Source of the DNA: Opitutaceae bacterium
GTDB lineage: Bacteria > Verrucomicrobiota > Verrucomicrobiia > Opitutales > Opitutaceae
Reading direction: 5' to 3'
NCBI GenBank assembly: GCA_015075305.1
Contig: JABTUS010000002.1
Span: forward strand, 62,001 to 126,000
Length of the DNA stretch: 64,000 nt
How positions within the stretch are numbered: position 1 is the stretch's first letter; every line of letters starts with the position of its first letter. The translations under genes and the position numbers were made by a program. Below are positions 2,140-31,557 of the stretch, piece after piece. The notes below the pieces were generated by a model, which worked only from the letters and a program-made list of their open reading frames with translations, was not told where the DNA came from and did not search any database.

Positions 2140-2147
2140 TGTATACA
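2140..2147. promoter_or_regulatory. TGTATACA palindrome, candidate operator 1
   Basis: Perfect 8-bp palindrome TGTATACA, 38 nt upstream of the start codon of the TonB receptor that ends at 2101. The 5' leader also has a small inverted repeat (ATGCGC-TTG-GCGCAT, 2123-2137). The same core occurs at 3425, 23846 and 24168, each time in a promoter region of a sugar-acid gene. GntR-family hexuronate regulators such as UxuR and ExuR bind GGTATACC-centred palindromes, so a related regulator is a reasonable guess. Confidence 0.6.
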
Positions 2148-2455
2148 AACTGACACATGTGAATGCTATTTCGAAATGGCAAGTCCCGAGTTGCCGACTC
2201 ATGTATCCTGCTCCTGCAGAGTCCTTAGGCGCAGGGCACCGGAGGCGATGAACAGCCGGGCGGACATTTCAAGGACCCTGCCGGACAGGATGGCTGCGAT
2301 GGCGGGCTCCACTGGCGGTCCTGCACGACTTCCTGAGGGTCACTTCCTGTCCCGCGTGCGGCAGCGCAAAGGCTGCAGGCACGGATGATGCCATGACGGG
2401 CGATCTCAGGAGCTTTCCGCAAGACCGATTCCAATGCGTCCGCAGCGTCAACCCC
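2148..2455. other. Non-coding stretch between SDR gene and operator 1
   Basis: About 300 bases with no credible gene. Short open frames on both strands lack codon bias and recognisable domains. No terminator hairpin with a T tract is evident after the SDR stop at 2456. Confidence 0.5.
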
Positions 2456-3238
2456 TCACCAAACTGTCCAACCGCCGTCCACGACGAGCGTGTGGCCCGT
2501 GATATAGCTGGAAGCGTCGCTCAGCAGAAAGAGCGCCGGACCGGTGATCTCCTCCCTGCGGCCAATGCGGCCGAGCGCGGTCTTCGAGCTGAGCTGCGCG
2601 ACAAACCGGGGGGAATCAGCCTGGACGGCCGGACTGGGAAACGGGCCGGGTGCCAAGCAGTTGAAGCGCACACCGCGCGGGCCAAAGTGCACCGCCAGAT
2701 AGCGGCACATCTGGATGAGCGCGGCCTTGCTCGCACCATAGTCTATCGGGTTTGGCGCCATCGGGGCGGAATAGATCCTGGGATCGGGCGAGACTAGGCC
2801 GTACATGCTCGAAAAAAGAACAATGCTGCCGCCGCCATGCTCTCCCGCCATCGCAAGCGCCGCGGCGCGACAGAACTCAAAGGTGGGTGTGAGCGCGCCG
2901 GTGAAGGTCCTGTTCAGATCGTCGGTCGAGAGCTCCTCCAGCGTCTTCCCGGACGAGGAGACGAAGGGCAGGTGCACAAGGCCGTGTGGCGCGCCATGCG
3001 TCGCGATGAGACGAGGCACGGCGGCGCGCTGCGCAGCAAGGTCGGTGAGATCGAGCGCGACATGGGCCGTGTTCCCAAGGCCGCGTTCGCGCACGAGCGC
3101 CTCCGCGCGGCCAGGCAGGTCGATGCAGACCACCGTGGCCCCCGCCGCATCAAGCGCCGCGGTGATCGCAGCGCCAAGATGACCTGCGCCGCCCGTCACC
3201 CAGACGGTCCTGCCCTGAAAATTTCCGGTTGAGCTCAT
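2456..3238 (-). CDS. SDR-family oxidoreductase
   Basis: Classical short-chain dehydrogenase/reductase of 260 residues from the chosen start. It has the Rossmann motif TGGAGHLG (residues 15-22), a catalytic Ser (SS at 143-144), Tyr167 and Lys171 (YGASK), and the usual C-terminal 'SSYITGHTLVVDGGW'. It resembles the SDR at 26979-27764 around the active site (both have a 'P-x-x-x-Y...DYxxxK' insertion), so the two are paralogs. Sugar-acid or polyol oxidation or reduction is inferred from context only. The frame stays open upstream to 3370, with other ATGs at 3301 and 3370; 3238 was chosen because the fold begins immediately after it. Confidence is high for family, low for substrate. Confidence 0.85.
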   Translation of the reverse strand: MSSTGNFQGRTVWVTGGAGHLGAAITAALDAAGATVVCIDLPGRAEALVRERGLGNTAHVALDLTDLAAQRAAVPRLIATHGAPHGLVHLPFVSSSGKTLEELSTDDLNRTFTGALTPTFEFCRAAALAMAGEHGGGSIVLFSSMYGLVSPDPRIYSAPMAPNPIDYGASKAALIQMCRYLAVHFGPRGVRFNCLAPGPFPSPAVQADSPRFVAQLSSKTALGRIGRREEITGPALFLLSDASSYITGHTLVVDGGWTVW

Positions 3239-3424
3239 CGGGAATGTGAGAGGGATAAGGCGCCGGACCTTTCGCAGCCCGGCGAGCGTCAGTGACTTCA
3301 TATCGAGGAGTTCGTCAACGCTGTGATTGATTCCCTCGCGGCCGGAACCGGGCTGCCGGACGTGCATCAATCTCGCACGCCACTTCCGCCCACCTGAAAG
3401 AATTCACTTGCCTGGAGCCACCTA

Positions 3425-3432
3425 TGTATACA
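3425..3432. promoter_or_regulatory. TGTATACA palindrome, candidate operator 2
   Basis: Perfect TGTATACA palindrome in the 301-bp divergent gap between the SDR (minus strand, start 3238) and the sialidase-fold gene (plus strand, start 3540). It could control either or both. Nothing else recognisable is in this gap. Confidence 0.55.
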
Positions 3433-3539
3433 CGAAGACACGCGGTCTCTTCCTGCATTTCTCATCCCGCGCCCCTCAAGGCAATTCCCATCAATGGCGG
3501 CCCGTGTTTGACGCCGCTGACGCCGCCGCCAGCCCTCCA

Positions 3540-4931
3540 ATGATCTCCCCCTCCCGACGCACCTTTCTCAGGAATTCAGCAGCTCTCGCGGCTGCGATCC
3601 CGCTTACACGAATTGTCGAGGCAAGCACTGGAGCATCCGCAGGGTCTCCCGGGCCCCTTTCGCCCTCCACGCACGCCAGCAATCTTGCGACCATGGTTGA
3701 ATCTGACGGCTCGCTTCGCCTCGACTTCGGCGAGGAGCGACTGATCCTCGCCGGCGGCCTGCAGCCTTCGCTGCTATGCACCAGGTCTGGTGCGCTCATC
3801 GTGCAGGGACAGCTGCCGGAAAAGCCGTTCGAAACCACCCGCATGCACTATCCCCATGCACTCGGCACCGTGATCTCGCGCGATGATGCAAGGACATGGG
3901 AGCGCATTCCACTCAAGCCTGGCGACAACGGGGTCAATCTTGAAGGTGGCATCACTCAGCTTCGCGACGGCACGATTCTCGCGCTCGACACCTATATCAC
4001 ACCCGGCGCGCAGCCCGGTGAGGCGCTCGGTCAGCTCTACATTTCACACAACGACTGGCGCACGGTCGAAGGTCCGCTGGAGGCGCGCTTCGAACTGCCG
4101 GGAGCCATCTATCCATCAAAGGATGACGGCGGCCGCCCACACGAGGCGCAGCGCCTGCACCGTCGCATTATCGAGCTGCCCAACGGTGATCTTCTCACGA
4201 CCTGCTACGGCTGGCTCAAGGGCGACAGCACACCCAGCACCTATGAGCCGCGGATGATCAAGACGCGCGTCATGCTCCTGCGCTCCGCCGATCGGGGACG
4301 CAACTGGAGGCTCGTCTCGACGGTGGCCGTCAATCCCGCGGTGGGCACCGAGGGTTTCGGGGAACCCGTGCTCGCCCGCTTGAGCCGCGGACCGCTCGCC
4401 GGACGCTTGATCTGCCAGATGCGCACAGGGCGTGAGCTCCATGAGGCGACCTCGGATGAAGGTGGCGCGACGTGGTCATCCGCGCGCGTCCGCACGTTTG
4501 CCGGCCTCGACATCAACCGCACCGACCTCTGGGTTGACAATTTCCGGAATCTGAAGGGCAGAAGCGGAAGATTTCTCGACGAAAGCAACCTTGATGAGCT
4601 TCCCGGTGCGGTCGTCGATCCCGACCTGCTCGAACTGCGGAGCGGATTGCTCGTGGCAACCTTCGGCGTGCGCATTCCGCAGAAGGCATGCTGGCAGGAG
4701 GCGCGTCATCCCTGGAATGGAAACTATCTGGCGATCAGCCGCGATGGTGGCGTGACGTGGCCCAACGTCGCCCGGCTCACCACGGGCGTCCAGACCACGC
4801 ACTACACAGCGCTCGAGGAAACGCCCACCGTCAACCGCCTCTTCGTTGCCTACGATCTCGGGGCTTGGGGCAAGGGCCTCGGCCGCGATCTTTGGGGCCG
4901 CTTTGTGGATATTACGGTGAAACGCGCATGA
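3540..4931 (+). CDS. Tat-exported sialidase-fold (Asp-box) protein
   Basis: 463-residue protein that starts with a twin-arginine signal (SRRTFLRN, then a hydrophobic stretch to about residue 27). The mature part has four Asp-box motifs of the SxDxGxxW type at about residues 113-120 (SRDDARTW), 249-256 (SADRGRNW), 305-312 (SDEGGATW) and 400-407 (SRDGGVTW), diagnostic of the six-bladed sialidase/BNR propeller. It probably hydrolyses a glycosidic bond to an acidic sugar outside the cytoplasm. True neuraminidase activity is not proven, because many environmental members have other substrates. The start at 3540 was preferred over upstream ATGs because it exposes the Tat signal. It lies 107 nt downstream of an operator-like palindrome and converges with the MFS gene. 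Confidence 0.88.
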   Translation: MISPSRRTFLRNSAALAAAIPLTRIVEASTGASAGSPGPLSPSTHASNLATMVESDGSLRLDFGEERLILAGGLQPSLLCTRSGALIVQGQLPEKPFETTRMHYPHALGTVISRDDARTWERIPLKPGDNGVNLEGGITQLRDGTILALDTYITPGAQPGEALGQLYISHNDWRTVEGPLEARFELPGAIYPSKDDGGRPHEAQRLHRRIIELPNGDLLTTCYGWLKGDSTPSTYEPRMIKTRVMLLRSADRGRNWRLVSTVAVNPAVGTEGFGEPVLARLSRGPLAGRLICQMRTGRELHEATSDEGGATWSSARVRTFAGLDINRTDLWVDNFRNLKGRSGRFLDESNLDELPGAVVDPDLLELRSGLLVATFGVRIPQKACWQEARHPWNGNYLAISRDGGVTWPNVARLTTGVQTTHYTALEETPTVNRLFVAYDLGAWGKGLGRDLWGRFVDITVKRA

Positions 4932-5006
4932 GTGAAGCGCGGGCCGGGTCATGCATGGCGCCAGCGCTTCATGCGAAAATCGCTCGCACCGCCGCCAACT
5001 CCGGCT

Positions 5007-6248
5007 TCATCTCGGCTGCCTTCGCTCCGCCGTAAGCAGAAGAAGGGCGACGGCCACTGTGGCGCTCGCGGCACCAAACGCGAAACTGGCCTGAAAGCCA
5101 AAGCGATCGGTGAGGCTCCCGTGGAGGGCGGGCACAAGGCTGCTGATCGGCGCGACGAGCGCCAGCAGCGCCATGTTCCGCGTCGCATGAGCGGGTTGTG
5201 ACACCGCGATGATGTAGTTGAAGAAATACACGCCGCCCAGTTCGCCCCCGCCCATGAAGCCGAAGGCGGCAAGGTAGCCGTAACCCGTGGCGAAGAAGGG
5301 CCAGGCGAGTCCGAGCCCGACGAGAACAACAGTGCCGAGCATCGCTGACCGCGCACCGTACTTCCCGGCGATGAGACCGAGGCCAAAGCCGGCCAGCGCC
5401 TTGCAGCCGAAGCGCAGCGCCATGATGAGCCCGGCGAGCTCCAGCGGCGTCCGGCCGATAGCCTCCCGCGTGTACAGCGAGACGTTGGTCATGCCGCCGA
5501 GCGCGCAGTACCAGAGAAGATAGGCGATCCAGGCAAAGACGAGCCGGCGGTCGGCGAGATAGGAACCCAAGCTCTCGCGCAGAAACGTGACCAGCGAAGC
5601 GATGCGTTCACCGGACGCCTCCGGCAGCCGCAGGCGCCGCGCGAGCACTGCGCACGTGGCCATGCAGGGCAGCGCGATGAGGTAGAGCAGCCCGAAGTTG
5701 TACGGGTGCGGCAAGCCCGGAATTCTCCCCGAAAGCACCAGTTGCGCCAGCAGCGAGCCGAGCACGGCGGCGAATGGTCCGATGCCAAAGGCGTACTTGA
5801 AGGCGCGCGCGCGCCCGGCCTCGCTGGTGCCGCGGGCCACACAGCGGAGCAGGTAGGTATTGATGACGCTGTTCAGCATCCCGAGCAGCAGGCCCTGTCC
5901 TACCACGGCGGTGATTCGCATCCCGTTGGGCGCGGGAAGGAAAATCGCGGCAATCACCAGCAGGAAAGAGCCGGCAACGATGCCGTAGCTGTGCTGGACG
6001 GTGCGCAGTTCGAACCGTGCGGGGACAAGCCAGGAACAGATCAGCGGCATGATCGATCCAAGCAGGTAGGTGGAGCTCGGCAGGTTGGCGATCGTCGCGC
6101 TGGCACCAAGCTTGTCAAAAAACTCGGCCTGCACAATTCCGACGTAGAGCACCGGCGCGGAGAAGAAGGTCAGAATCTGCGTCAGAACGTAGATGTTGCC
6201 GTTGCGACGGTCCACCGCGGGATCGATCGGAAGCACGACGCCGGTCAT
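5007..6248 (-). CDS. MFS transporter (probable sugar or sugar-acid permease)
   Basis: 413 residues with about 12 hydrophobic segments of major-facilitator type, from 'IYVLTQILTFFSAPVLYVG' near the N-terminus to 'ASATVAVALLLLTAERR' at the end. It probably carries a monosaccharide or sugar acid over the inner membrane. Its start overlaps the stop of the upstream metallohydrolase gene by 4 nt (ATGA), so translation is likely coupled. It is the last gene of the long minus-strand catabolic run. Substrate is inferred only from location. Confidence 0.85.
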   Translation of the reverse strand: MTGVVLPIDPAVDRRNGNIYVLTQILTFFSAPVLYVGIVQAEFFDKLGASATIANLPSSTYLLGSIMPLICSWLVPARFELRTVQHSYGIVAGSFLLVIAAIFLPAPNGMRITAVVGQGLLLGMLNSVINTYLLRCVARGTSEAGRARAFKYAFGIGPFAAVLGSLLAQLVLSGRIPGLPHPYNFGLLYLIALPCMATCAVLARRLRLPEASGERIASLVTFLRESLGSYLADRRLVFAWIAYLLWYCALGGMTNVSLYTREAIGRTPLELAGLIMALRFGCKALAGFGLGLIAGKYGARSAMLGTVVLVGLGLAWPFFATGYGYLAAFGFMGGGELGGVYFFNYIIAVSQPAHATRNMALLALVAPISSLVPALHGSLTDRFGFQASFAFGAASATVAVALLLLTAERRQPR

Positions 6249-8383
6249 CGGGTGGAGGCCGCCTCTGCGACGCGGCGGTAGATTTCCTTGGCCTCGCGGA
6301 ATCTTGCGGCGATTGCGTCGCGCTGGCCGCGGTGGGCGAACGTGCCGCGATTGTCCATCTTCGCAATAAGCGTTTCGATCTGGGCAATGAAGAACTCGGC
6401 GTCCTCGCGCGATGCCGGACGGCGGCCCCCGATCGTGACGTAGACGGGCGAGGTGTGGGCGTAAACCTCGCGGTCGTTCGGCGCCAGGCGATGGCCGGGT
6501 CCGCGGACGCGGAGTGCGACCCAGCCGCTTTCCTTGATTTCGACGGTGTCCGCGAGGCTGATCGCATGCGGATTGGCACCGGCCTCGCGACGGGTTGCGA
6601 CGCGGCCGTTCACAACGACCTCGATCGCAGACATCGGCACGAAAGCTTCGGCGGCGGCGGTGACCTCGAGTTTGACGGAACCGTCGGCGCGGATCTCGTC
6701 ACCGGGCCCACGGCCACCTGCCGTGAACTTCACGAGCGGGCCGTTTGTGGCGAAACTGCGACCGGCGCGATAGCCGGCGAGCCACTTCGCGTAGTCGAGC
6801 GGGCCGGCAACCTGCACGTAGACGCGGCCTGCGCCGGGGATGATGTGAACGGGGATGTTGAGGAAGGAATCGGTGCCCGCCGACACCGGGCAGCGAAAGC
6901 CGCAATTGAGGAGACGGTACCAATATTCGGTCGGAAGATCCTCTGCGTTCTGACTCAACACGTCGATCGTGTCCGCCAGTCCGAGGGCGATGTCGACGGG
7001 AAACTCGCTCGGCAGCCCGGGATGCACGTAGGTGACGGCGGCCCCCTGGGCTCGCGCGTCCGCAACCTGCGGGAAATTTCCCGGATGATCGAAGGGATAC
7101 GGTGAATGCGGCCAGCCGAAGTACGGTGGATCGACGAACTTCTTGAGTCCGAGAAATCCGACGTGGCCGAAGATGTCGTTCCGCATCTCAAGGCCGGTGT
7201 TGATGATGTAGCCAGCGGTCGAAATTGTGGCGGGTGCGCCGGTGAAGTAGTCCCCGTCGTTCATCGTAGCGGTGCGCGGATCGTTGCAGGGCAGGATGTT
7301 CGTAACGCTGAGATCCTCGGCCTGCGCAGCCAGAAGAACGTCTGCCGGCTGGATGAGCTTTTGCGCGAAAAGATTTGCATGCACATGCGCGTCCCCGCCG
7401 TACCAGCCCGCGGTGCCGAGTCGGGCGAGGCGCGAAAGGCGGAGCGTGACGGTGCCAGTGTGGCCGGGCTCGATCCGGAGCACGCGGCGCTCAGGGCGGT
7501 ATTCGAGTCCCTTGACCACCTCAACAACGGTATCCCCCACCGGGAGTTCGGCGGCGAATCTCCCATTCGAGAAAAAGTACGCGTCACCGCTTCCGGTCTG
7601 GCCGAACTCGCCCGACACGATCCGGTGCATGACGCCAGCCGGGGCGCAGGCGCGTCCGTCGGCGCCGGTCAAATAGACGCGGGCCGGAGTTGGCACGCCG
7701 TGCTCGTCGAGGATGGCCACATCCAGCGTGCCGCGGGCGTGGACCAGTGCGGGAAAGTCGAGAGCCGCATCGCGGCCGTTGGCGCGGATCGTCAGCTTCA
7801 CCCGCTCAGCGACAACCGCAGCCGGCAACTCGAGCCAGGCGCCGCTGGCCTCGCCGGCGGCGAGGTCGACTGCGTAAACCGGCACGTCTTCCGCTGCGAA
7901 CACCTCGATCTGGACCGACGTGGAGCGGGTGTTTTCAAAAACGCAGGGAACCTTCGCCGATCCGCCCGCTAGGAAATCGGCGCGCGCCGGGGCGGTCACC
8001 GTCAGGGTCTCGCCTACGACGATACGCGCCAACCGCGGCCCGGCGAGAGCGCGGTAGGCCTCGCGCACCCGGGTGCGCACGAGGGAGCCCGCGCCGCTGG
8101 CACCCGGGGCGCGGAAGCCGCGCCATTCCTCAATGAATGGAGGCAGGGCGCTCTTGAGCATCTGCGAGCCGAGCACGGCCGGAGGGCGCGGTGTATCGGT
8201 CCAGTAGAGCAGGCTCGCGGCAAATTCCGCATAACGGTCGATCGCCGCAGCCGCGATCGGGTCGGAAACGAAGGTGGCGGTCTGGTACGGAAAGATGGTC
8301 AGCGGCACCGGCCCGGCTGCGAAGTTGAACCGGACGGCGAACAGCGAAAAGACGGCGAACAGCGAAAGGTTGAAACGCATCAT
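6245..8383 (-). CDS. CehA/McbA-like metallohydrolase with signal peptide
   Basis: 712-residue exported protein. A signal peptide (MMRFNLSLFAVFSLFAV, to about residue 23) precedes a beta-rich region and a PHP-like metal-binding domain: GDAHVH (Asp331, His333, His335), a Glu near 399 (GLEM), His454 in YVHPG and Asp505 in AGTDS. The family includes hydrolases such as CehA; the natural substrate here is unknown. The signal peptide is encoded by a perfect 18-bp tandem repeat (8334-8369), giving SLFAV-F-SLFAV. The gene is translationally coupled to the downstream MFS gene. Two consecutive ATGs (8383, 8380) are possible starts. Confidence 0.8.
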   Translation of the reverse strand: MMRFNLSLFAVFSLFAVRFNFAAGPVPLTIFPYQTATFVSDPIAAAAIDRYAEFAASLLYWTDTPRPPAVLGSQMLKSALPPFIEEWRGFRAPGASGAGSLVRTRVREAYRALAGPRLARIVVGETLTVTAPARADFLAGGSAKVPCVFENTRSTSVQIEVFAAEDVPVYAVDLAAGEASGAWLELPAAVVAERVKLTIRANGRDAALDFPALVHARGTLDVAILDEHGVPTPARVYLTGADGRACAPAGVMHRIVSGEFGQTGSGDAYFFSNGRFAAELPVGDTVVEVVKGLEYRPERRVLRIEPGHTGTVTLRLSRLARLGTAGWYGGDAHVHANLFAQKLIQPADVLLAAQAEDLSVTNILPCNDPRTATMNDGDYFTGAPATISTAGYIINTGLEMRNDIFGHVGFLGLKKFVDPPYFGWPHSPYPFDHPGNFPQVADARAQGAAVTYVHPGLPSEFPVDIALGLADTIDVLSQNAEDLPTEYWYRLLNCGFRCPVSAGTDSFLNIPVHIIPGAGRVYVQVAGPLDYAKWLAGYRAGRSFATNGPLVKFTAGGRGPGDEIRADGSVKLEVTAAAEAFVPMSAIEVVVNGRVATRREAGANPHAISLADTVEIKESGWVALRVRGPGHRLAPNDREVYAHTSPVYVTIGGRRPASREDAEFFIAQIETLIAKMDNRGTFAHRGQRDAIAARFREAKEIYRRVAEAASTR
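8334..8369 (-). repeat. Perfect 18-bp tandem duplication within a signal-peptide coding region
   Basis: Two adjacent copies (8334-8351 and 8352-8369), each beginning ACGGCGAACAGCGAAA on the plus strand, differing only at the last base. They encode the repeated SLFAV hydrophobic segment of the metallohydrolase. In-frame gain or loss of a unit would lengthen or shorten the signal peptide by six residues. Confidence 0.8.
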
Positions 8384-8462
8384 GGCTCAAGCCGGAACGA
8401 AGAGCGATCCGCATCCCCAGGATGGAGGATGAAACAACAGAACGGGGATATGGCGCGCCGCC

Positions 8463-9431
8463 TCAGGCAAGATGCGGTGGCAGAAGTTCGGGCGTGTTTT
8501 TCTTCACCCAGGCAATGACCTGTTTCACGTGCTTTTCGGTGCCGCTGCGGTATGGCGACTGGCAGCGCAGGCCCACCACGCCACCGCCGGCGACGCGCTG
8601 GATGCGGTCAATGGCGGAATCCCAGAGGCCTGCCTCCTTGACGAGCGGATTGACGAGCGCCTCGTGCAAGTAGCGATAAAAGGCATCGGCCAGCGGCCTG
8701 GCCTCCTCGAGGCGACCGGTGGCGCAGAGCGTGTAGAGTTCGACGACCTTGCGGGCGTTGAAGCCCGTGATGGAGCAGTAGCCGCCGCGACCGCCCGCGG
8801 GGATGCGCTGGAAAAAATCCTCGCCGCCGAAGATCGCGAGGTCCGGCGCGAACGTGAGCATCGACTTCACTTCTTCGGGACTGGCTCCGGTGTCCTTGGT
8901 GCCGATGAAGGTCGGGTGTTTGCTGGCGAGCCTTCCAAGCAATTCGGGCGAGATCTTCCGCTTGGAGCGTCCCGTCAGGTAGAGGACGACCGGAGTCTTG
9001 CCGGCAGCAGCGATCACCTCGGCGACGTAACGCTCGACCTCGTCGTCCTTGAGTTCGAGCCAGAATGGCAGCGCGAGCTGCACCGCGTCGGCGCCCGCGC
9101 GCCTGGCGACGCGGATGCGCTGGATGGTCGTGCGCGTGCTCAGAGCAGTAGCGCCGATCTGCACGGGCAGGCCAAGGGCGTGGGCCTCCCTGACGACGAC
9201 CTCCGTGATCCTCGCGAAGGTCGCATCGTCCTGCGCGTAGAATTCACCGGTGGTGCCGCCGGTGTAGACGCCGCTGATGCCGGTGCCCGCGTAGCCGCGC
9301 ACTTCCTGGGCGAGGCGGCGGAGGTCGACCTCGTCGCGCTCGGTCCACGGCACGATCAAGGCGCACCAGACGCCCTGCAGGGTTTTTCGAGTCAATGGAG
9401 TGATCTTGGCGGATTTTTTTGCGATGCTCAT
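8463..9431 (-). CDS. DapA/NanA-family lyase or aldolase
   Basis: 322-residue TIM-barrel class I aldolase of the dihydrodipicolinate synthase/N-acetylneuraminate lyase family. It has the GTTGE signature (residues 59-63), the catalytic Tyr151 (VVLYLTG) and the Schiff-base Lys179 (FIGTKDTG). Members cleave or form 2-keto acids. Placed after enolase-type dehydratases that yield 2-keto-3-deoxy sugar acids, a 2-keto-3-deoxy-sugar-acid aldolase or dehydratase role is likely. It is not in a lysine pathway context. It lies 32 nt downstream of the amidohydrolase gene in the same run. Confidence 0.85.
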   Translation of the reverse strand: MSIAKKSAKITPLTRKTLQGVWCALIVPWTERDEVDLRRLAQEVRGYAGTGISGVYTGGTTGEFYAQDDATFARITEVVVREAHALGLPVQIGATALSTRTTIQRIRVARRAGADAVQLALPFWLELKDDEVERYVAEVIAAAGKTPVVLYLTGRSKRKISPELLGRLASKHPTFIGTKDTGASPEEVKSMLTFAPDLAIFGGEDFFQRIPAGGRGGYCSITGFNARKVVELYTLCATGRLEEARPLADAFYRYLHEALVNPLVKEAGLWDSAIDRIQRVAGGGVVGLRCQSPYRSGTEKHVKQVIAWVKKNTPELLPPHLA

Positions 9432-9463
9432 GATGGTGGAAATGCGGGGATGACGAAAGACGC

Positions 9464-10297
9464 TCAGGCCGGCGCGGTGAAGCCGCCGGAGGGCAGGCGA
9501 TCGAGGCCAAAGAAATTTCGCGCGTTGTCGCGGAGGATGAGTCGCCTGGCCGAATCGGGCAGATCGGCTGACTCAATGCGCGCGCGCTGCATGGCGACGG
9601 AGTAGAGCGGCGTGTCGCTGCCGAAGAGCAGGCGCTCGGCTCCGAGTTCCTTAACACCCCACTCAATCAGGCCAGGTAGAATGCTGCGCGCCGACGAGGT
9701 GTCGACCCAGAGATTGCGGTGCTTCGCGGCCTGTATGGCGCGGACCTGGAGGTCGACGCGACCGTTGTCGCCGTTGCCATTGCCGAGGTGGGCCAGCATC
9801 ACCCGCGCGCCCGGATGACGGTCCGCAAACGGCACGAAGTCGGATGGCAGGCTGTTCGGGCAGCCGCTGTGCGTCATCACCGGCGCATTCACATCCTCGA
9901 AAAAGGAGAACAGCTCCTCGCCATGTTCCGAGATCCTGTAGGCATGCTCCTCGGGATGAACCTTGATACCCACGCACCAGGGCGCCTTCAGCATGTCGCG
10001 CGCCTGGTCATAGGTCTTCGGCTGAAGCGGATTCACGATCACATACTGCAGCAGCCCCCTGACCCTGGGCACCTCGCGAAACGCCGCTTCATTCGCCAAT
10101 GCGACATCGACCGTGCGACCACGCGGCAGCAGGCCGGCCAACGGGGAAACAATCGTCCATTCAATGCCGCACGCCTTGGCGCGCTCCGCCACCTGTTCCG
10201 CATCGCCGCTGGAGAACTCCGCAATCAATGGATCCGCATGCACGTAGCGCCCAAAATGCGCATGGCTGTCGACGGCTTTGATGGTTGCGAGGTTCAT
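9464..10297 (-). CDS. Amidohydrolase_2-type metal-dependent hydrolase
   Basis: 277-residue TIM-barrel hydrolase. Metal-binding residues appear in order: HxH at 12-14 (DSHAH), His114 (KVHPEEH), His143 (MTHSG), His170 (LAHLG) and Asp228 (FGSDTP). The family includes decarboxylases and lactonases that act on sugar-acid lactones, which would suit a pathway running through 2-hydroxyacid dehydrogenases. It is located between the second dehydrogenase and the DapA-family lyase. Reaction is inferred, not shown. Confidence 0.83.
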   Translation of the reverse strand: MNLATIKAVDSHAHFGRYVHADPLIAEFSSGDAEQVAERAKACGIEWTIVSPLAGLLPRGRTVDVALANEAAFREVPRVRGLLQYVIVNPLQPKTYDQARDMLKAPWCVGIKVHPEEHAYRISEHGEELFSFFEDVNAPVMTHSGCPNSLPSDFVPFADRHPGARVMLAHLGNGNGDNGRVDLQVRAIQAAKHRNLWVDTSSARSILPGLIEWGVKELGAERLLFGSDTPLYSVAMQRARIESADLPDSARRLILRDNARNFFGLDRLPSGGFTAPA

Positions 10298-10410
10298 GAC
10301 TGCGGCAACGCGTTGTCACCCATCGCGGAAGGAACCCAATGGAGGCCGGTTTTCATATTCAGGAAAAGACCGGCAACGCGCACGCTGAAAGGACCCGGGC
10401 AGGGATGGAC

Positions 10411-11427: not shown

Positions 11428-11430
11428 GGC

Positions 11431-12645: not shown

Positions 12646-12664
12646 CGGGCGAGGGCTCCGCAGC

Positions 12665-13666: not shown

Positions 13667-13675
13667 CGCGGAAAA

Positions 13676-14884: not shown

Positions 14885-14906
14885 GGTAGGATGAAATCGA
14901 ACGCGT

Positions 14907-15977: not shown

Positions 15978-16038
15978 GCGGATCCCGTTCCGAGCCGGGC
16001 ATGATTCGATGGAAAATGAACTCATGGGTGCAAAAACG

Positions 16039-16872
16039 CTATGCGCCTTCGCGCCACTGGAGGCGAAGATCGCGTGCGACGGTGCACGCGTCCCGCCATG
16101 TGTCGCCGAAGCAGCTCAGGCGATAGGCGGGCGCAGCGTGGCCGAGCTCAGGCACGACGAGCACGGGGAAATCGCCCGACGCCTGGCGCAAGTGGCCGAG
16201 CAGCGACCGCGTGTAGGCGAGCCAGTGTCGATATTCGGGGGTCCGTCGACCCCGGGAATCAAGCGCGGGGAGCTGGCAATGATGTCCATTGAACGGGCGC
16301 AGGTGAAACTGTGTCGCGGCAGCCAGCAGCGCCGTTGGGTCGCGCAGCCGCTCCCAGAGCTGATCCTCGCGCAAGTGGCGCACGACGGCGAAGTGCGATT
16401 GATCCAGGCACAGCGGCAGCGGCTCGCCCGTCGCGCGCTCGAACTCGCGGCATAGCGCCAGCGTGGCCTCGGGCGTCTCGGTGAACGTATCGCGGTGTGT
16501 CTCGATCGCGAACGGCAGAGCCAGCTCGCGCGCCACGTCGCGGATGCGGACAGCCAGTTTCACCGCCTCGGCAAGGGGTGTGTCGAAGTCGCCAAGCTGC
16601 ACGTCGATCGCGAGAGCACCGAGTTCAAGGGCTCCGGTGAAAGCGGGCGCAACCTTCCCCGGGGCGTCAATGCTGGTTACGGCAAGATAGCGCAGCGTGC
16701 CACGATCGGCGACCTCGGGGCGCGGCGGGGAAAAAATCCCTTCAAAGCCCGCCGTGCGCATGGTGGCGAACTTCCTCGCCCAGGACCACTCGCGCCGCGC
16801 AGTCGGATACTGGCGAAGCGACCAGGCCGATGCGAAGAGCCAGAGCGGGCGATCCGGAGACGCGGATTTCAT
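16039..16872 (-). CDS. Sugar phosphate isomerase/epimerase-like TIM barrel
   Basis: 277-residue xylose-isomerase-like TIM barrel. Visible segments are 'FAIETHRDTFTETPE', 'LCLDQSHF' and 'FHLRPFNGHHCQ', which supply acidic and histidine residues placed like the divalent-metal ligands of the family. Likely role: isomerisation or epimerisation of a sugar or sugar acid in the cytoplasm. The ATG at 16872 overlaps the stop of the upstream propeller gene (ATGA), so it was preferred to starts further upstream inside that gene. Substrate unknown. Confidence 0.75.
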   Translation of the reverse strand: MKSASPDRPLWLFASAWSLRQYPTARREWSWARKFATMRTAGFEGIFSPPRPEVADRGTLRYLAVTSIDAPGKVAPAFTGALELGALAIDVQLGDFDTPLAEAVKLAVRIRDVARELALPFAIETHRDTFTETPEATLALCREFERATGEPLPLCLDQSHFAVVRHLREDQLWERLRDPTALLAAATQFHLRPFNGHHCQLPALDSRGRRTPEYRHWLAYTRSLLGHLRQASGDFPVLVVPELGHAAPAYRLSCFGDTWRDACTVARDLRLQWREGA

Positions 16873-18386
16873 CGGCCAGGGAGACGAAGCGCAAAAACGT
16901 CGGCGTCCTTGAGAATGAACTTCAGGCGGACAGTCTGGCCGCGAAGCGGTGTCAGGTCCGAAGTGGCCGCCCACGATACGGTGCGATCGACCGAATCGCC
17001 GACCATGACCGGACATTCCTGAAGCGTGTAGCCCGGGATGGCTTCGCCGTCAGGCGTCTGGATCTCAACCCGCAGGCCACCGGCGGCGGAGGTCGAGTAG
17101 TTGAGCGCGAGGCGCGCCCCTTCGACGACGAATGGCTTGGTCAGCATTTCGCCTCCCGCATAACCGGCGGAGACGGAAGCGAAACCGTCCAGGCGCAGCG
17201 TGTAGCGGCCGAGGTGGGCCGTGGGTTGAACGTAGTTTTGTCCGACGTAAATCGACAATTCATTCGGCCCGGTCTGCACAAGTCCCGTCGCGGGAACTCC
17301 GTTGCGCGAAACCCAGTTGCCCTTGTCGAGTCCCGGCCGGACGAAGGCCTCCATGAAGGTGCGATCGTAGCGGGTGCCGCCGCGCGTGGTCATGAAGACC
17401 GTATCGGAAACCTCGTTCGGAATATTGTGGTTGTGGCCGGTGATCGCGCGGAAGCCCTTGCCCAGCTTCTGTTCGTCCATTTCCGCGTCGGTGAGGAAAC
17501 GGCGGTCGTGCACGAGGCGCATCGGTGTCGCGAGATAGATGTGCGGCGCGCGGAAGTACGGGCGCGTGTGGTTGGTGTAGAGCTCCTCGAGCGGCGTGTC
17601 GCCGAAGGTCATGCGCAGGCCCGGAGTCCAGTTGACGAGATCCTTCGACGTCGTGCGCGCGATGCTGCGGAATCCGTCGACCCGGAATTTCTGCGCGTAG
17701 TCGGTCCAGCCCGTGAACACGCGGAAATAGAGCACGTAGCACTGCTCGACCTCCGACCAGAAACCAACGTTCAGCGAATCGAAGGCGCCGTCCTTGAAGA
17801 CCGGCTGGTCGCGCCACTTGCGCCACTGGAGTCCATCGGGCGACACGAGCACATAGAGCCCCTGCGGTGACTGCCCGCTGATGGCCTTGTAGCGTTCGTC
17901 GGCGGGGACGCCGGGACGGGTGTCCAAAAACGGACTGATGCTCTGCGTCCAAGGATCCTCTCTTGGAGCCGGCGCGAGCAGAATGTTGTTTTCCTTCGAG
18001 CCCTGAAACTCGACCAGGCCCAGCTTCGGCTTGGTCCAGACGATGCCATCCCGGCTTTCGGCATAACAGAAATAGGAGGTCGATTCCTCCGACTTTCCGG
18101 CGCTCGCATCGCGCGGTCCTCCGCGATAGTACATCCGGTGGATCCCGTTGTCGTGGATGATTGTCGCGTAACCCGAGGCATCCCGATCCCAGGGATCGTT
18201 GAACGGAACCGCAACGCCCGCGTAGTGCGGGTGGTGGAGTTTCAATTCCGCGCCATCAAGACGGTCTATCAGAAACCGGTCGACAAACAGCTCGAGGCGA
18301 TTGCCGATGCGGAGCGGTTCGGCGGTGAGGCTGGCGATTGCACTCGCAACAGCGAGCAGTGACAGGGCGTGACGGAGCAGGTTCAT
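16869..18386 (-). CDS. Secreted glycosidase-like beta-propeller protein
   Basis: 505 residues with a Sec signal peptide (MNLLRHALSLLAVASAIASLTA). The body has repeats reminiscent of GH32/GH43-like five-bladed propellers: 'RLELFVDRFLID', 'PFNDPWDRDASGYATII', 'CYAESRDGIVWTKPKLGL' and 'VSPDGLQWRKW'. The C-terminal 130 residues look like a beta-sandwich. Such proteins are common in planctomycete and verrucomicrobial sugar clusters but have few tested activities. It overlaps both neighbours by 4 nt, indicating coupled translation. A glycoside hydrolase role is inferred. Confidence 0.7.
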   Translation of the reverse strand: MNLLRHALSLLAVASAIASLTAEPLRIGNRLELFVDRFLIDRLDGAELKLHHPHYAGVAVPFNDPWDRDASGYATIIHDNGIHRMYYRGGPRDASAGKSEESTSYFCYAESRDGIVWTKPKLGLVEFQGSKENNILLAPAPREDPWTQSISPFLDTRPGVPADERYKAISGQSPQGLYVLVSPDGLQWRKWRDQPVFKDGAFDSLNVGFWSEVEQCYVLYFRVFTGWTDYAQKFRVDGFRSIARTTSKDLVNWTPGLRMTFGDTPLEELYTNHTRPYFRAPHIYLATPMRLVHDRRFLTDAEMDEQKLGKGFRAITGHNHNIPNEVSDTVFMTTRGGTRYDRTFMEAFVRPGLDKGNWVSRNGVPATGLVQTGPNELSIYVGQNYVQPTAHLGRYTLRLDGFASVSAGYAGGEMLTKPFVVEGARLALNYSTSAAGGLRVEIQTPDGEAIPGYTLQECPVMVGDSVDRTVSWAATSDLTPLRGQTVRLKFILKDADVFALRLPGR

Positions 18387-19915
18387 GATTTCGTGGATGA
18401 ATACGGGGCGGCGGGATCGATGCCGTGGGCGCGGGCGTACCAGAAGCCGAGGGAGTAGAAGGCCAGTGCGTCACCCTGGAGGACATTGAGCATCCAGCGC
18501 GTCGGCGGCGGCATGACACCTTCCGGGTCCATGAACCACTTCAAGTGTTCCTTGGAGAGGCCGTTGAAAATCCGCGCGACCCGCACGCGGGCCGCCGCGG
18601 CTACGTCAGGAGGGGCGTGGCGGGCAACGATGCTTCCGGTCAGACTCTGGCGTTCGCGGATGCCGACCCAGGCGATCGGGAGCGTGGCATTGTGCAGCAG
18701 GAACGGCGAGCGCCAGGTTGCACGGTCCTTGATGGAAAGGGGCAGCTTTTCCCAGGCGCCGGTGAGGGTGTCGACCGTGATGAAATAGTAGGCTGTCAGG
18801 TCGTCGCGCTGGCCGGTCTGGGAATACTCCCACCATGCCAGCAAGCCGCGGACGTAGCGGTCTTGTGCGGTGGGTTCGAGCTCGGCGAGGATCTCTGCGC
18901 CAATCACGATCTGGACATGAAACTGCCGGTCTTCCGTGCTGATGTAGCTCGGCCTCCCAAGACCTAACATCGTCTCGCGCGGCGTCGGGATGGCGCCGTA
19001 GTTCGCGTCGAGGCGCCGGAATTCCGCGAGGCATTCCGGCTCCTGGGTCACCTCGTAGGCCAGGCGATGCATGACAGCCCAGAGAAACATGTGGCGCTGC
19101 GCGCGCGGGTTGGACTCCTCGAGGTTCCAGGTCTCGCCGAAGTAATTGATCCGGTATCCCGCGCGCCAGCGTCGCGACACGGCGCTGAAGATCTCGCGGA
19201 TGCGCTCCCGCGTCTCCGGCGGAGCAATGCGCCAGTAGCGGTAAAGGCCGAAAAGCGGACCGAAGTGCTGCTCGGTGCTCGTATGGTCGGTGGCGCGGCC
19301 GTAATAGGGTTTGCCGAAGAAACCGCCGGCGGAGCTCGCACCGCGCACGGGCGTTTCGATGATGCCGGCCTTCTGGACGGGAGCGGTGTCGGCGGATGGC
19401 GTCTCATTGAGCCGGTAAACACCGTCGACCGCGCCGAAGGCCCGGCGCGCGGCGGCGAGGGCGGCGGGATCGCGCGTGGCCTCGTAGCGATAGCACTGGG
19501 CGGCGAGAAAGAGGCCGGCGATGAACGGGCTGTTCTCGTGACTCATCCACGCATGCGGTTCGGGGCCGGCGATGGTGGAGTCGCCGGGGCCGAAGTCGGA
19601 CGCAACAAAGGGCCGCTCCTCGTCCCACTTGATGTGCGAGTACATCAGGCCGGCACGATCGTAGTAATGCTCGTCCACAAAGCGGTCGATGAGCGCGATG
19701 CGCTCCGGCAGCGGCGTCTCAGGGCGCAGGCCAGCCAAGGGACCGGCGGCGACGAGGGGTGGCAGGAAGAGCGGCAGCAGACTGGTCAACGCACGGAAGC
19801 GCGATGCGAAGGCAGGGATGCAGGCTGGCTGTCCCTTAAAGACAGCGCCATGACAGCGACCCATCCAAGCCGCGTCCCTCCGGGAAACACCTGAATGCGC
19901 GGCGACGAAAATCAT
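18383..19915 (-). CDS. Exported alpha/alpha-toroid-like protein, unknown function (paralog A)
   Basis: About 510 residues, function not recognised. A hydrophobic stretch (LTSLLPLFLPPLVAAG) near the N-terminus suggests export. The helix-rich body resembles alpha/alpha-barrel glycan enzymes. It shares clear blocks with the next gene upstream (19924-21411): 'ENS', then 'AAQ..RY.AT..P.ALAAAR', then 'GKP', and near the C-terminus 'LS..HL.W..DP.G...PP'. The frame is open far upstream to 20407 inside the paralog gene; starts at 19915 and 19864 are the realistic choices. Its stop overlaps the downstream start by 4 nt. Confidence 0.7.
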   Translation of the reverse strand: MIFVAAHSGVSRRDAAWMGRCHGAVFKGQPACIPAFASRFRALTSLLPLFLPPLVAAGPLAGLRPETPLPERIALIDRFVDEHYYDRAGLMYSHIKWDEERPFVASDFGPGDSTIAGPEPHAWMSHENSPFIAGLFLAAQCYRYEATRDPAALAAARRAFGAVDGVYRLNETPSADTAPVQKAGIIETPVRGASSAGGFFGKPYYGRATDHTSTEQHFGPLFGLYRYWRIAPPETRERIREIFSAVSRRWRAGYRINYFGETWNLEESNPRAQRHMFLWAVMHRLAYEVTQEPECLAEFRRLDANYGAIPTPRETMLGLGRPSYISTEDRQFHVQIVIGAEILAELEPTAQDRYVRGLLAWWEYSQTGQRDDLTAYYFITVDTLTGAWEKLPLSIKDRATWRSPFLLHNATLPIAWVGIRERQSLTGSIVARHAPPDVAAAARVRVARIFNGLSKEHLKWFMDPEGVMPPPTRWMLNVLQGDALAFYSLGFWYARAHGIDPAAPYSSTKS

Positions 19916-19923
19916 GGCGGGGA

Positions 19924-21411
19924 TCAGGACCAGAGCTTGAGCTGGCGACCTTCCCAATACGACGCGATAATGCCCTCGGGCATCTCGCTGCTGAGGAAGT
20001 GGGTGAAGTAGTTCACTGCTGGCGGAATTTGCCTGCCGTCCGGATCGGAGATCCAGAGCAGGTGGCGCGGGCTGAGTTTCTTCAGTGTTGTTGCGGCAAA
20101 GTTCACTGCTTCCTCGCGCTGTTCCGGGCAGTGACGGGCAACCAGCATCGCGGTCCACTGGAAACGCGCAAGGCAGTCGGCGTACACCCATTTCGAGGCG
20201 AAGGAGAGCATGGGGTGGCCGCCAAGCCACTGCTCGCGCGGCAGACGCGGAGTCATTTCCACCGGCCGCCAGGAGCGGTCCTTGGTTGAAACAAGGAACC
20301 AGTAGAGGTAGTCCCACCGCTCCGTGTCGAAGCCCATCGGATGATCGGCCCACCACAGCGCGAGCACGCGTCGCAGCTCGGCCGCGCTGAAGAGATCGGG
20401 CACGCACTCATGGATGATGGCGGCGGAGATCGCGGCGAACTGGCAGTGCTGGATCTGCTCCCAGTGCGCGAACTCGCCCTCCTCGACACGGGCGCCGGCA
20501 ATCCTGTCCCAGGCCTTCGGCTTGTAGACGCCCTTTTGGAACTGCTCGACAATGTAGTCGATGCGCCGGTGCGTCCGCCAGTTGCCGGAGGCGACGACAA
20601 ACTCGTAGGCGTCGCGGTATTTTCGATCTCCGGAAAATCTGTAGGCTACGGCGACGAGAGCGGCCATGATGGCGTTGTAGTCGGAGCCATCGAGGCGGTT
20701 GTTCCAACTGCCGCCGGTCCGGTTGAAAATCGTGTAGTCCACCCGGATCTGGTAGTCCGCGACGGCGATGAACATGGCGCGGATTTCCGCCTGCTCCTCC
20801 GCTGAGGCGACGGGATGGAATGTCCACAGCCCCCACATCATGTGCAGGTACTGGTCGCCGGTCGTATGGACCGAGTACTCGAAGTGGAACGGCTTGCCCA
20901 TGAAGCCCGGATTCCCCGCGTCGACACCAAACTGGTAGATGATCCGCAGCGCCCGGTACGCGACCCGCGCGGCCGCCAGTGCTTCGGGCTCGCCCGTGGC
21001 CTGGTAGCGGATGCTCTGCGCGGCGAGGTGCGAGCCGGAGGTCGTGATGGAATTCTCGTTGGTGAAAAAATCCGTGATGGCCTTGAACTTGTGACCGAAG
21101 TTGAAGCTGAACTGGTCCATGCCCTCGAAGTCCTCCTGGCGAACAACGCGCAGGCCCTCGTCAGCCACGTAAGGCATGCAAACCATGATCCCGCTGGGAT
21201 GCTTGCGCGCGGCAAAGGTCAGGCGCTCGACCCGCCGGACCTTTTCCTCGACGGAAAGCCGGTCGAAGCCGGGCAGCAGGTGATCCAGCGCGGCACCGGG
21301 CCGGGTTGATGCCGCGCGAGCCGCATCCGCGGCCAAGGCACCCAGCGGCACCGCCAGCCCACCGGCGATCATCGTCTTTAGGAAATCCCGACGGGGTGTG
21401 GCAGGTGGCAT
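19924..21411 (-). CDS. Tat-exported alpha/alpha-toroid-like protein, unknown function (paralog B)
   Basis: 495 residues beginning with a twin-arginine signal (PRRDFLKTM, followed by a hydrophobic segment to about residue 33). The body is helical with many aromatic residues and matches paralog A in order and spacing of motifs (ENS, AAQSIRYQAT, GKPFHFEY, LSPRHLLWISDP). It could bind or cleave an acidic oligosaccharide brought in by the receptor encoded just upstream, but no catalytic motif is recognised. Export by Tat, while paralog A looks Sec-type, implies that only one of the two folds or takes a cofactor before export. Confidence 0.75.
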   Translation of the reverse strand: MPPATPRRDFLKTMIAGGLAVPLGALAADAARAASTRPGAALDHLLPGFDRLSVEEKVRRVERLTFAARKHPSGIMVCMPYVADEGLRVVRQEDFEGMDQFSFNFGHKFKAITDFFTNENSITTSGSHLAAQSIRYQATGEPEALAAARVAYRALRIIYQFGVDAGNPGFMGKPFHFEYSVHTTGDQYLHMMWGLWTFHPVASAEEQAEIRAMFIAVADYQIRVDYTIFNRTGGSWNNRLDGSDYNAIMAALVAVAYRFSGDRKYRDAYEFVVASGNWRTHRRIDYIVEQFQKGVYKPKAWDRIAGARVEEGEFAHWEQIQHCQFAAISAAIIHECVPDLFSAAELRRVLALWWADHPMGFDTERWDYLYWFLVSTKDRSWRPVEMTPRLPREQWLGGHPMLSFASKWVYADCLARFQWTAMLVARHCPEQREEAVNFAATTLKKLSPRHLLWISDPDGRQIPPAVNYFTHFLSSEMPEGIIASYWEGRQLKLWS

Positions 21412-21466
21412 GAGATCAGCGGAAAAGCAGCGAAGCTCCGCAGATGAGGCCTTGAGCAGAGAAGAT

Positions 21467-21555
21467 GGAACCCGTGCGGAGACTGGGTTCCACCTACGAT
21501 CAGGAAACGTGTGGCAGCGGACCGTTCAACTTCCCGGGCCTGGGCCGCCCGGGAA
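21467..21555. terminator. Two hairpins after the TonB receptor gene, weak terminator or processing site
   Basis: Between the receptor stop (21579) and the next gene are two perfect inverted repeats: TTCCCGGGC...GCCCGGGAA with a 7-nt loop (21531-21555) and GGAACCC...GGGTTCC with an 11-nt loop (21467-21491). Neither has a T tract, so they may attenuate or stabilise the receptor mRNA rather than end it, letting the receptor be made in excess over the downstream genes. Confidence 0.4.
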
Positions 21556-21578
21556 ACGAAACTGTGCCGCCAGCCATT

Positions 21579-23807
21579 CTACCAGGTGTAACGAATGGCG
21601 AGCTTGGCGTCGAAACCGGGCTCGGTCTGGACGAGACCGTTGGCGGCGATGGCAACAATGTAACGCTCGTCGGTGATGTTGTTGAGATTGAGCTGGGCGC
21701 TCCAGTTTTTGCCCCAGGTGTAGCGTGCGAACACGTTGTAAGTGGCGGGAAAATCTATCCAGAAATTCGCATTGCGCTTCCTGCTCTGGTCGAAGTATGT
21801 GGCTCCCACGGCGCAGCCCTTGAGCAAACCGGAATTCCATCCATAGCGGACCATCAGGCTTTCCTTCTTGGGAACGAAATCCACCGCCATGAGCGTGGGA
21901 TCCGCGGCGGTCGCGGAGTTGCCGTCGGCATACGTGGCAATGAGATTGAGTTCCCCGGAATCGGTCGCATGGCGCAATCCAAACTCGTACTCCCAGCCGT
22001 CAGCCATGTCGGCCGCCGACTCGATGGCGCCTATGGAACCCGGTGGATTGCCTTCGGGCAGAACTCCGAATGTGCGAACGTGCGTGAGCGACATGTCGTA
22101 GTAGGCGATCGAGCCATAGATGGAAACCGACTTGCTGACCTTGTGGTCCAGCTTGACTCCATACTCCTTCATCTTGCCTTCCTGGTTGGAGAGAGGAGGA
22201 CCGAGCTGGTCATTGCCCTGGAAACGATCCGTGTTTCCAGTCTGCGTGAAGATGTTCTGCGAGTCGGTCCAATAGAGGGAAACCGCGGGAATCGGCCGGA
22301 TGACAATGCCGTACTTGTGCGTCTTGAATGTCTTGTCCGGACGATCGGTGACAACACCGGTGACATTGTTCTTGTTCGTGCCGCCCGGCATGAACCAACG
22401 CAGACCGCCGACAAGCATGAGACGATCCTTCAGAAGAGACAGATTTTCCTGAAAGTAGTAGGACAGGCTCTCCGGACGATTGATGTTCTGGGAGAGGTTG
22501 GGCAGGCCGGCACCCGCTACCTTCTGCGCAAAGTAGGCGTCGTCAGCCGGATAGTTGTTGATGTTTGCCGTATCGAGCGCCGGCAGGGTGTTGACCGACT
22601 GATCCTGGCGTGTGAACTGATAGTTGGCATCCGCGCCAATCGTCGAATCGAGTGTGAAAGCCTTGGCGGTCAATTTGTGGGTGAAGTCAGCCTGCAGGCT
22701 GTGACTGAAGCCATCGATCATCACCGGGATGTCCTGACGCGCCAGGGTATGGTTGTCAGCAGTGATGGTAATGCCCCGCACATGGCGCCGGCGATCGACA
22801 AGATTGTTGAAAAAGTATGCCAGTCGAAAGTTGGCGTTCTCCGTCAGCTTGCTGAGCATTGTGAGATTCACGAAGCCATCCTGATTCTCCCAGAACCTGT
22901 CCTTGCTGCGACCCGGCGAGAAGCTCTTGGTTGAATAACGATTCAACTTTGCCGCCATCGGATTCTTGGTCGTGCCCTGGATCGTGTTGAAATCGAGGAA
23001 GTCCTCCCAGTAGAAGTAGCCATTGTCCTGGAAATAGTAGGCGTTGAGCATCACGATGACGTTCGGCCCGAAGTAACCGGTGAGGGCGCCCCCGACAAAT
23101 TTCTGATCCTCATTCTCGATCTCCCTGTCCGTATCGGCATTGAGGAGCCCCAGGGTCAGGCGATAGTCGAGCTTGAAGTCCTTCTGGTCAACCAAAGGAC
23201 CGGTTGTGTTGGCCTGCAGCCGGACATAACTGTTGTTCGAAAGCGTGACATGAAGATCGTTCGATCGCCTGTGGGAAGGCTGCCGGGTGACAAAATTGAC
23301 GCCGCCTCCGAGAAACGAGTTGTTTCCAATGAGCATGGCGCCGGGACCCTTGATGACCTCGATGCGCTCGACGTCGAACATCGGGTTGCGCTTGAAGGAG
23401 GTCTTCGTGACTCCATCGCGCAGCGAGAAGGTCGTTCGAAATCCCCGGATGTTGACGTCATCGTTGATAGTCTGGTTCTGGGTGACGCCCGCCACGCCGA
23501 ATTGAAGCACCTCGTGGACTTCAACGGCGTTTAGATCCGAGATGACCTGCTGATTGATGATCGATACAGAACCGGGAAGATCCATTACGTTCTTTGCCGT
23601 GCGGCTTCCGACCAGAGTCTTGTCGACACGATAGCCCCCGTCATCCTCCGTGGAGACAACAAAGGGGCTGAGCTCGACCGTTTCGTCTTCCGTCTTGGGG
23701 ACATCAGACTGTCTTGTTGACTGCGCCGATCCAATGCCAGAAGCGGCTATTGCCGCGATTGCGCCGAGTGCACACCGATAGGCGGTGGTAATCAGGGAAT
23801 TTTTCAT
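21579..23807 (-). CDS. TonB-dependent outer-membrane receptor
   Basis: 742 residues from the chosen start. It has a signal peptide ending near SAQS, then 'VELSPFVVSTEDDGGYRVD', a hallmark of Opitutaceae receptors, a plug ('GSVSIINQQVISDL', 'DVNIRGFRTTF', 'RIEVIKGPGAMLIG'), a large barrel, and a terminal 'FDAKLAIRYTW' with an aromatic last residue. It should import the oligosaccharide used by this locus. The frame is open upstream to 24059, but 23807 yields the signal peptide. It heads the long minus-strand run, with a GTATAC palindrome exactly 38 nt upstream. Confidence 0.95.
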   Translation of the reverse strand: MKNSLITTAYRCALGAIAAIAASGIGSAQSTRQSDVPKTEDETVELSPFVVSTEDDGGYRVDKTLVGSRTAKNVMDLPGSVSIINQQVISDLNAVEVHEVLQFGVAGVTQNQTINDDVNIRGFRTTFSLRDGVTKTSFKRNPMFDVERIEVIKGPGAMLIGNNSFLGGGVNFVTRQPSHRRSNDLHVTLSNNSYVRLQANTTGPLVDQKDFKLDYRLTLGLLNADTDREIENEDQKFVGGALTGYFGPNVIVMLNAYYFQDNGYFYWEDFLDFNTIQGTTKNPMAAKLNRYSTKSFSPGRSKDRFWENQDGFVNLTMLSKLTENANFRLAYFFNNLVDRRRHVRGITITADNHTLARQDIPVMIDGFSHSLQADFTHKLTAKAFTLDSTIGADANYQFTRQDQSVNTLPALDTANINNYPADDAYFAQKVAGAGLPNLSQNINRPESLSYYFQENLSLLKDRLMLVGGLRWFMPGGTNKNNVTGVVTDRPDKTFKTHKYGIVIRPIPAVSLYWTDSQNIFTQTGNTDRFQGNDQLGPPLSNQEGKMKEYGVKLDHKVSKSVSIYGSIAYYDMSLTHVRTFGVLPEGNPPGSIGAIESAADMADGWEYEFGLRHATDSGELNLIATYADGNSATAADPTLMAVDFVPKKESLMVRYGWNSGLLKGCAVGATYFDQSRKRNANFWIDFPATYNVFARYTWGKNWSAQLNLNNITDERYIVAIAANGLVQTEPGFDAKLAIRYTW

Positions 23808-23845
23808 GGTGGTAACTAAGTGGGACATGTGTGCGGATATTTGCG

Positions 23846-23853
23846 TGTATACG
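23846..23853. promoter_or_regulatory. GTATAC palindrome, candidate operator 3
   Basis: TGTATACG on the plus strand, one base off the TGTATACA form. It lies 38 nt upstream of the TonB receptor start, identical to the spacing in the other receptor. On the minus strand a TTGACA box is 4 nt before the GTATAC core, so the site would sit in the promoter spacer and fit a repressor. The 392-bp divergent gap 23808-24199 holds this site and operator 4 and no gene. Confidence 0.6.
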
Positions 23854-24167
23854 TATGTCAAATAAAAAGCGCATGTGAATCCTGATCCTTTAACCAAGGG
23901 GCCGGCCGTTGGAAAAATTGCGGGAGCCCCTCGCAGTCTCGCCCGCGGACAACTCCACAATCGGACCGCCATGCTCCCAAATAGCAGCACATCGTCAGAG
24001 GTGACAACGGTACGGGATGAGCTCACCTTGGCGAAAAGGGTTTTCCTGATGACGGGCATTCAACTCCACGCCCTGTTCAAGAAGCAGAAAGCACCGAACT
24101 CGTTTGAAAAATCGCATTTTGTCGCGTTGACAATATTATTGACATCAGACCTGTTCGAAGAATTTCT

Positions 24168-24177
24168 TTGTATACAA
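24168..24177. promoter_or_regulatory. TTGTATACAA palindrome, candidate operator 4
   Basis: Perfect 10-bp palindrome, the best copy in the window, 22 nt upstream of the first Gfo/Idh start (24200). Two TTGACA boxes lie a little upstream (24127 and 24139). With operator 3 it places both divergent operons under the same putative regulator. Confidence 0.62.
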
Positions 24178-26162: not shown

Positions 26163-26167
26163 AACAC

Positions 26168-30602: not shown

Positions 30603-30667
30603 GTGGAGAGCGCAGGCTGTTGCACCTTCGCCGAAGAAGTCGGGAGTCTTGCGTATTCAGTCGCTCA

Positions 30668-31516: not shown

Positions 31517-31557
31517 ACCATCCTCGCGTAAATTGATAAGCCCAGAATTCTGGCGCG

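Follow-up and report, generated by a model that had tools for sequence, protein, structure and literature searches.

A palindromic candidate operator in a sugar-acid gene island of an Opitutaceae bacterium and a GntR/FCD protein that may bind it

A sugar-acid gene island and its palindromes

The window analysed here, a 64-kb stretch of the genome of an Opitutaceae bacterium, carries an island of genes for two TonB-dependent receptors, a sialidase-fold protein and enzymes typical of sugar-acid catabolism, interspersed with four copies of a short palindrome (Table 1). Receptor 2 and the 13 genes behind it, all on the minus strand, are probably co-transcribed as one 14-gene run. Four of these genes, spanning 16039-21372, encode proteins that have no Pfam match. 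Structure models of two such proteins resemble five-bladed propeller glycosidases/phosphorylases and alpha/alpha barrels close to GlcNAc 2-epimerases. TM-scores are low and the rmsd is high in both cases, and the predicted folds are too generic for naming the substrate of the pathway, which was not found.

Table 1 Genes and palindromes of the island. Positions are those of the window; starts chosen by us are indicated.
Feature	Position	Strand	Remarks
TonB-dependent receptor 1	1..2101	-	723 aa; extends 71 bases beyond the left edge of the window and was read across the edge
Putative operator TGTATACA	2140-2147		38 nt ahead of receptor 1 ATG (ATG at 2101, minus strand)
SDR oxidoreductase	2456..3238	-	Pfam/NCBIfam; start chosen by us
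Operator-like TGTATACA	3425-3432		between the SDR gene and the sialidase-fold gene
BNR/sialidase-fold protein	3540..4931	+	BNR_2, 26.1 bits, under the 31.4 cut-off
13 genes behind receptor 2	5007..21372	-	MFS, CehA/McbA metallohydrolase, DHDPS family, amidohydrolase, two 2-hydroxyacid dehydrogenases, two enolase-superfamily proteins, NanM-like kelch protein, four without Pfam match
TonB-dependent receptor 2	21579..23807	-	first of the 14-gene run; Plug domain, TonB receptor families
Putative operator TGTATACG (CGTATACA on minus strand)	23846-23853		38 nt ahead of receptor 2 ATG (23807, minus)
Putative operator TGTATACA	24169-24176		24 nt from GTATAC end to first Gfo/Idh gene
Gfo/Idh operon	24200..27764	+	two Gfo/Idh proteins, HpcH/HpaI aldolase, SDR; cluster recurs in relatives

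To the right of the Gfo/Idh operon, at 29397-36111, lie genes for UxuA, an SDR, a FAH protein, an aldehyde dehydrogenase and a YjhG/YagF-type dehydratase (1030.9 bits against a cut-off of 808.15). This combination suggests a Weimberg-like sugar-acid route. GTATAC does not occur within the block, which is retained beside the Gfo/Idh operon in G008, one of the two nearest relatives of this genome.

An initial annotation, made from the letters alone, had reported four sites matching TGTATACA or one base off, with GTATAC confined to them, all of them in promoter regions of the island and two exactly 38 nt before the ATG of a TonB receptor. Each of these points was confirmed, the count of GTATAC having been made over all 64 kb, with the single correction that the site placed at 24168 begins at 24169. 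The number of copies by itself is only moderately unusual, as dinucleotide shuffles of the window hold 0.98 on average and four or more in 2 of 100. Their position is the stronger signal: all four are intergenic, with 0.15 expected in non-coding DNA and P(≥4) of about 2e-5 under a first-order Markov model applied post hoc, the non-coding share of 14.5% being taken from our own gene calls; a Fisher value that depended on a grouping made post hoc was set aside. When one mismatch to TGTATACA is allowed the window contains seven octamers where 2.18 are expected, and seven or more arise in 3 of 100 shuffles; the one-mismatch octamers at 2083, 26370 and 27746 lack the GTATAC core. The sites at 23846 and 24169 form a pair 323 bp apart; a helical-phase rule for the paired sites was weighed by eye and dropped. 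Promoter and terminator scans found no sigma-70-like promoter or terminator around the four sites.

Across the 4.87-Mb genome TGTATACA occurs at six places, three of them in the window. The fourth lies upstream of another TonB receptor, on contig C1, where it is followed by TGTATACG 32 nt before the ATG (start chosen by us), and the remaining two are inside long reading frames (C1:733543 and C7:276549).

P0001, a candidate GntR/FCD regulator

The genome has 18 GntR-domain matches, 16 of them above the cut-off, and the FCD domain is found in five proteins. Only one of the 18, P0001, has TGTATAC within 1 kb. P0001 is a GntR/FCD protein of 245 aa encoded on the minus strand of contig C4 (C4:268961-269698), and its promoter carries TGTATACC 20 nt before the GTG start. 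An N-terminal GntR winged helix (PF00392, 63.8 bits, cut-off 27) and a C-terminal FCD domain (PF07729, 72.3 bits, cut-off 24.3) are both present, as is a palindromic GT/AC site near its own gene and near its putative targets, as in the FadR/FCD subfamily of the GntR superfamily. The closest named matches are from Opitutaceae and other Verrucomicrobiota MAGs. Asp136, His140, His191 and His213 (D136, H140, H191, H213) are invariant in 19 aligned rows; we take these residues to be the Asp/His metal ligands of the FCD domain, and the set suggests a carboxylate effector for P0001.

The proposal that a GntR-like regulator encoded elsewhere acts on the island is supported by this one gene: its promoter carries the palindrome, and in relatives both its neighbourhood and the sites are conserved. 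The initial annotation had named UxuR/ExuR-type regulators as binding palindromes of this kind; P0001 scores 60.1 bits as UxuR and 43.4 bits as ExuR against NCBIfam equivalog cut-offs of 442 and 396. Judged by its domains, P0001 is a GntR/FCD protein, and by NCBIfam it is neither UxuR nor ExuR.

The malonate regulators MdcY and MatR have a similar operator. A characterized relative of P0001 (E 4.3e-12) is Atu1419 of Agrobacterium fabrum (PDB 6z74 and others), described in excerpts of PMC7797058 as a GntR/FCD repressor whose binding site, ATGTATACAT, is found in promoters, among them its own region, with Arg45 contacting an essential G of the operator and Glu34 being a further DNA contact. The operator core matches, and Arg41 of P0001, invariant in 19 of 19 rows, aligns with the Arg45 so described. 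Identity is low, however, and the residue aligned with Atu1419 Glu34 is Thr30; Atu1419 itself controls hydroxycinnamate genes and loops operators as a tetramer. Among FadR-subfamily sites, those with 2 nt between GT and AC belong to UxuR, MdcY, PrpR and others according to excerpts of PMC4494728, and the palindrome here resembles them in its TKGT/ACMA-type symmetry and GT-AT-AC core. UxuR and ExuR, the hexuronate regulators, are likewise GntR/FCD proteins of sugar-acid catabolism, UxuR having the 2-nt spacing in those excerpts, whereas the P0001 sites are mostly TGTATACA and not GGTATACC. The bacterial table of PMC4494728, as excerpted, lists no Verrucomicrobia, and the putative targets here include TonB receptors. 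Judged by titles and the starts of abstracts, searches of an open-access library yielded no paper on such a regulon in Verrucomicrobia; none was found there that connects TTGTATACAA with GntR, that deals with ATTGTATACAAT, or that treats a GntR repressor, UxuR and TonB-dependent proteins together in Xanthomonas.

The palindrome in related genomes

Matches to P0001 at ≤1e-20 are present in 17 of 57 genomes, this one included. The GntR homolog is the divergent neighbour of a Gfo/Idh homolog in four of them (G001, G002, G028 and G030) and lies 2 kb from it in G008; in named loci, GntR genes are repeatedly found in company with those for Gfo/Idh, HpcH and SDR proteins. Within the best 15 rows GTATAC lies 17-22 nt before the matched start in nine and at 177-179 nt in three, and is missing from the 200 nt upstream in the other three; across all 29 rows (two of 31 matches were left out, G001:C296 having no locus and that of G007 being partial) it occurs within 45 nt in 11. 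The 29 named GntR loci of the Opitutales group have GTATAC 16-28 nt before the start in 16 cases and within 250 nt in 20, a set that is not independent of the former because at least seven contigs, as judged by their length, are common to both. When all 64 six-base palindromes were ranked by excess in the 150 nt upstream of GntR genes, GTATAC came first (15 of 24, 0.43 expected), the runners-up reaching 4 of 24. Among 51 GntR relatives that are more distant and fall outside the Opitutales group, 18 likewise carry GTATAC no more than 250 nt upstream.

In 25 GntR promoters, which were selected for having the palindrome, G(T/C)AT follows it, with G at +10 in 21, A at +12 in 24 and T at +13 in 22, and T is found at -11 in 19 of the 25. 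This G(T/C)AT resembles the extra half-sites that figure in excerpts of Suvorova et al. (PMC4494728). The conserved positions may represent promoter hexamers or contacts of the protein. Overlapping direct repeats, GTATACTTGTATAC, lie 143-153 nt upstream of distant GntR homologs at L094 and L095 (G031 and G029). The G005 genome, which has no GntR match at the threshold, holds one TGTATACA.

Of the units that the initial annotation had placed under one repressor, the Gfo/Idh operon is well supported by comparison as a predicted member of the regulon. All 11 of the best-scoring Gfo/Idh rows, that of this genome among them, have GTATAC no more than 300 nt upstream, and none of the next nine does; the line between the two groups was drawn post hoc and divides scores that differ little (392.2 and 390.8 bits). 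One of the nine, a partial match in G036 with 63% identity, may be a true ortholog that lacks the site; one of 21 matches, a partial one (L130), was left out. Among the named loci, GTATAC precedes the Gfo/Idh homolog by at most 300 nt in 18 of 21. The GntR gene adjoins Gfo/Idh in L132 and L140 but no GTATAC is found at the junction, and L154 has none within 300 nt.

Both receptor units, and with them the 14-gene run, are fairly supported as putative members by their homologs, and the picture in named loci is mixed. Homologs at least 56% identical to receptor 2 (own included) have the site in all four assessable cases, 39-51 nt from the GTATAC end, and those at 39-47% identity in none of six, in a set of 14 matches of which two have under 50 nt of upstream DNA. 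For TonB homologs in the fetched neighbourhoods, GTATAC is found within 400 nt in 10 of 16 and at 36-44 nt in six, and the G007 homolog of receptor 1 (86% identical) has the operator exactly 38 nt before its ATG. Three close homologs are exceptions, with no GTATAC within 400 nt upstream: those of L131 and L132, at 70-71% identity to receptor 2, and that of L134, at 67% identity to receptor 1. The receptor genes of L131 and L134 lie immediately behind a GntR gene that carries the site in its promoter, and a single promoter may serve both genes; no such site is present at the junction in L132. Two more distant receptors, L275 and L276 (35-36% identical to receptor 2), are preceded at about 86-116 nt by paired GGTATACC-type palindromes, which hints at a second, UxuR-like regulon.

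Inclusion of the sialidase-fold gene found no comparative support. GTATAC is absent from the 500 nt upstream of all seven assessable other sialidase-fold homologs (two of 11 matches, L261 and L262, were left out and one more had no upstream DNA) and of all eight homologs of the neighbouring SDR. Since the two genes can sit within longer clusters in relatives, their operator could be elsewhere there. The site at 3425 is an unproven candidate operator for the SDR/sialidase-fold unit.

Proposed regulatory model and location of the putative repressor gene

Taken together, the palindrome lies ahead of receptor 1, the 14-gene run headed by receptor 2, the Gfo/Idh operon, the SDR and sialidase-fold genes, the C1 TonB receptor and the GntR gene. 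We consider it probable (roughly 0.83) that P0001 is a single pathway-specific repressor of the GntR family, with FCD as its ligand domain, that has TGTATACA as its operator and also controls its own gene. A P0001 dimer would bind the promoter palindrome and block transcription; binding of a carboxylate intermediate of the pathway to the FCD domain would free P0001 from DNA, and the receptors, hydrolases and sugar-acid enzymes would then be induced together.

A minor share of probability goes to the palindrome being bound by one or several of the other FCD-containing GntR proteins (those of C1, C2, C6 and C9), the C4 protein having a secondary role. Five FCD regulators are encoded in the genome, and the occurrence of GTATAC ahead of distant GntR relatives indicates that the core is not limited to one member of the family, but the four other FCD proteins have no TGTATAC within 1 kb and the homologs adjoining the Gfo/Idh operon are of the C4 type. 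That the palindrome is part of the core promoter, a TATAC-type -10 element and no operator, seems to us very unlikely: although it includes TATAC and in several receptor genes stands 36-44 nt ahead of the start codon, a promoter element of general use would occupy many more than six genomic places, the distance varies with the gene (17-22, 24-111 or 36-44 nt), the site is missing from the more distant paralogs of the receptors and of Gfo/Idh, and the scans gave no matching -35. The palindrome may nevertheless overlap a promoter. That a short palindrome has clustered here by chance, for which the only moderately unusual window count speaks, is the least credible explanation of all, given that site and position recur in relatives and given the paralog controls; it could hold for the 3425 site taken alone.

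If P0001 does bind TGTATACA, a recurring sugar-acid cluster of Opitutaceae-type bacteria would have a specific regulator, operator and regulon, outer-membrane receptors included. The effector of such a repressor should be a pathway intermediate and would tell what the largely unannotated enzymes degrade.

The repressor gene seems to have become separated from its operators in this lineage, to judge from its place inside the island in relatives, the grouping of its product in a tree and its location on C4 here. In both nearest relatives, G007 and G008, the GntR gene is inside the island, and in this genome it is outside. The gene is split by contig ends in G007, where its flanks are receptor 1 and the NanM-like and DHDPS genes, and in G008 it sits between the Gfo/Idh side and the NanM-like/DHDPS genes. 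Its neighbours in L131, L132 and L133 are Gfo/Idh on one side and a homolog of receptor 2 on the other, a junction at which the window has two putative operators only. The C4 protein groups with those of L131, G007 and G008 (86/94, under the tool's firm-support mark) within a seven-row clade at 98/97, above that mark. On C4, a contig of 430 kb, the GntR gene has a central position and faces a heparinase II/III-like gene, followed by penicillin-amidase-like and sulfatase-like genes (L060:10347-19264). This arrangement suggests that the operators were retained after departure of the repressor gene. More tentatively, and with considerable doubt, the repressor may have left the island for a site where the operator between the GntR and heparinase II/III-like genes couples two unlinked carbohydrate systems and the third TonB receptor on C1, the regulon having been rewired while the original operators stayed.

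Elsewhere in the genome TGTATAC occurs at 40 distinct places, of which 37 were classified with a rough home-made gene finder and two more lie in L006 and L060, C14:15998 being left out; the 14 loci inspected gave no convincing regulon members beyond those of C1 and C4. The reading frame around C1:733543 (L002:927-1937) resembles, by eye, the Pfam-less protein at 16039-16761. Near-identical proteins are encoded at L033 on C1 and L075 on C7, each several hundred bases from TGTATAC, which suggests a duplicated element.
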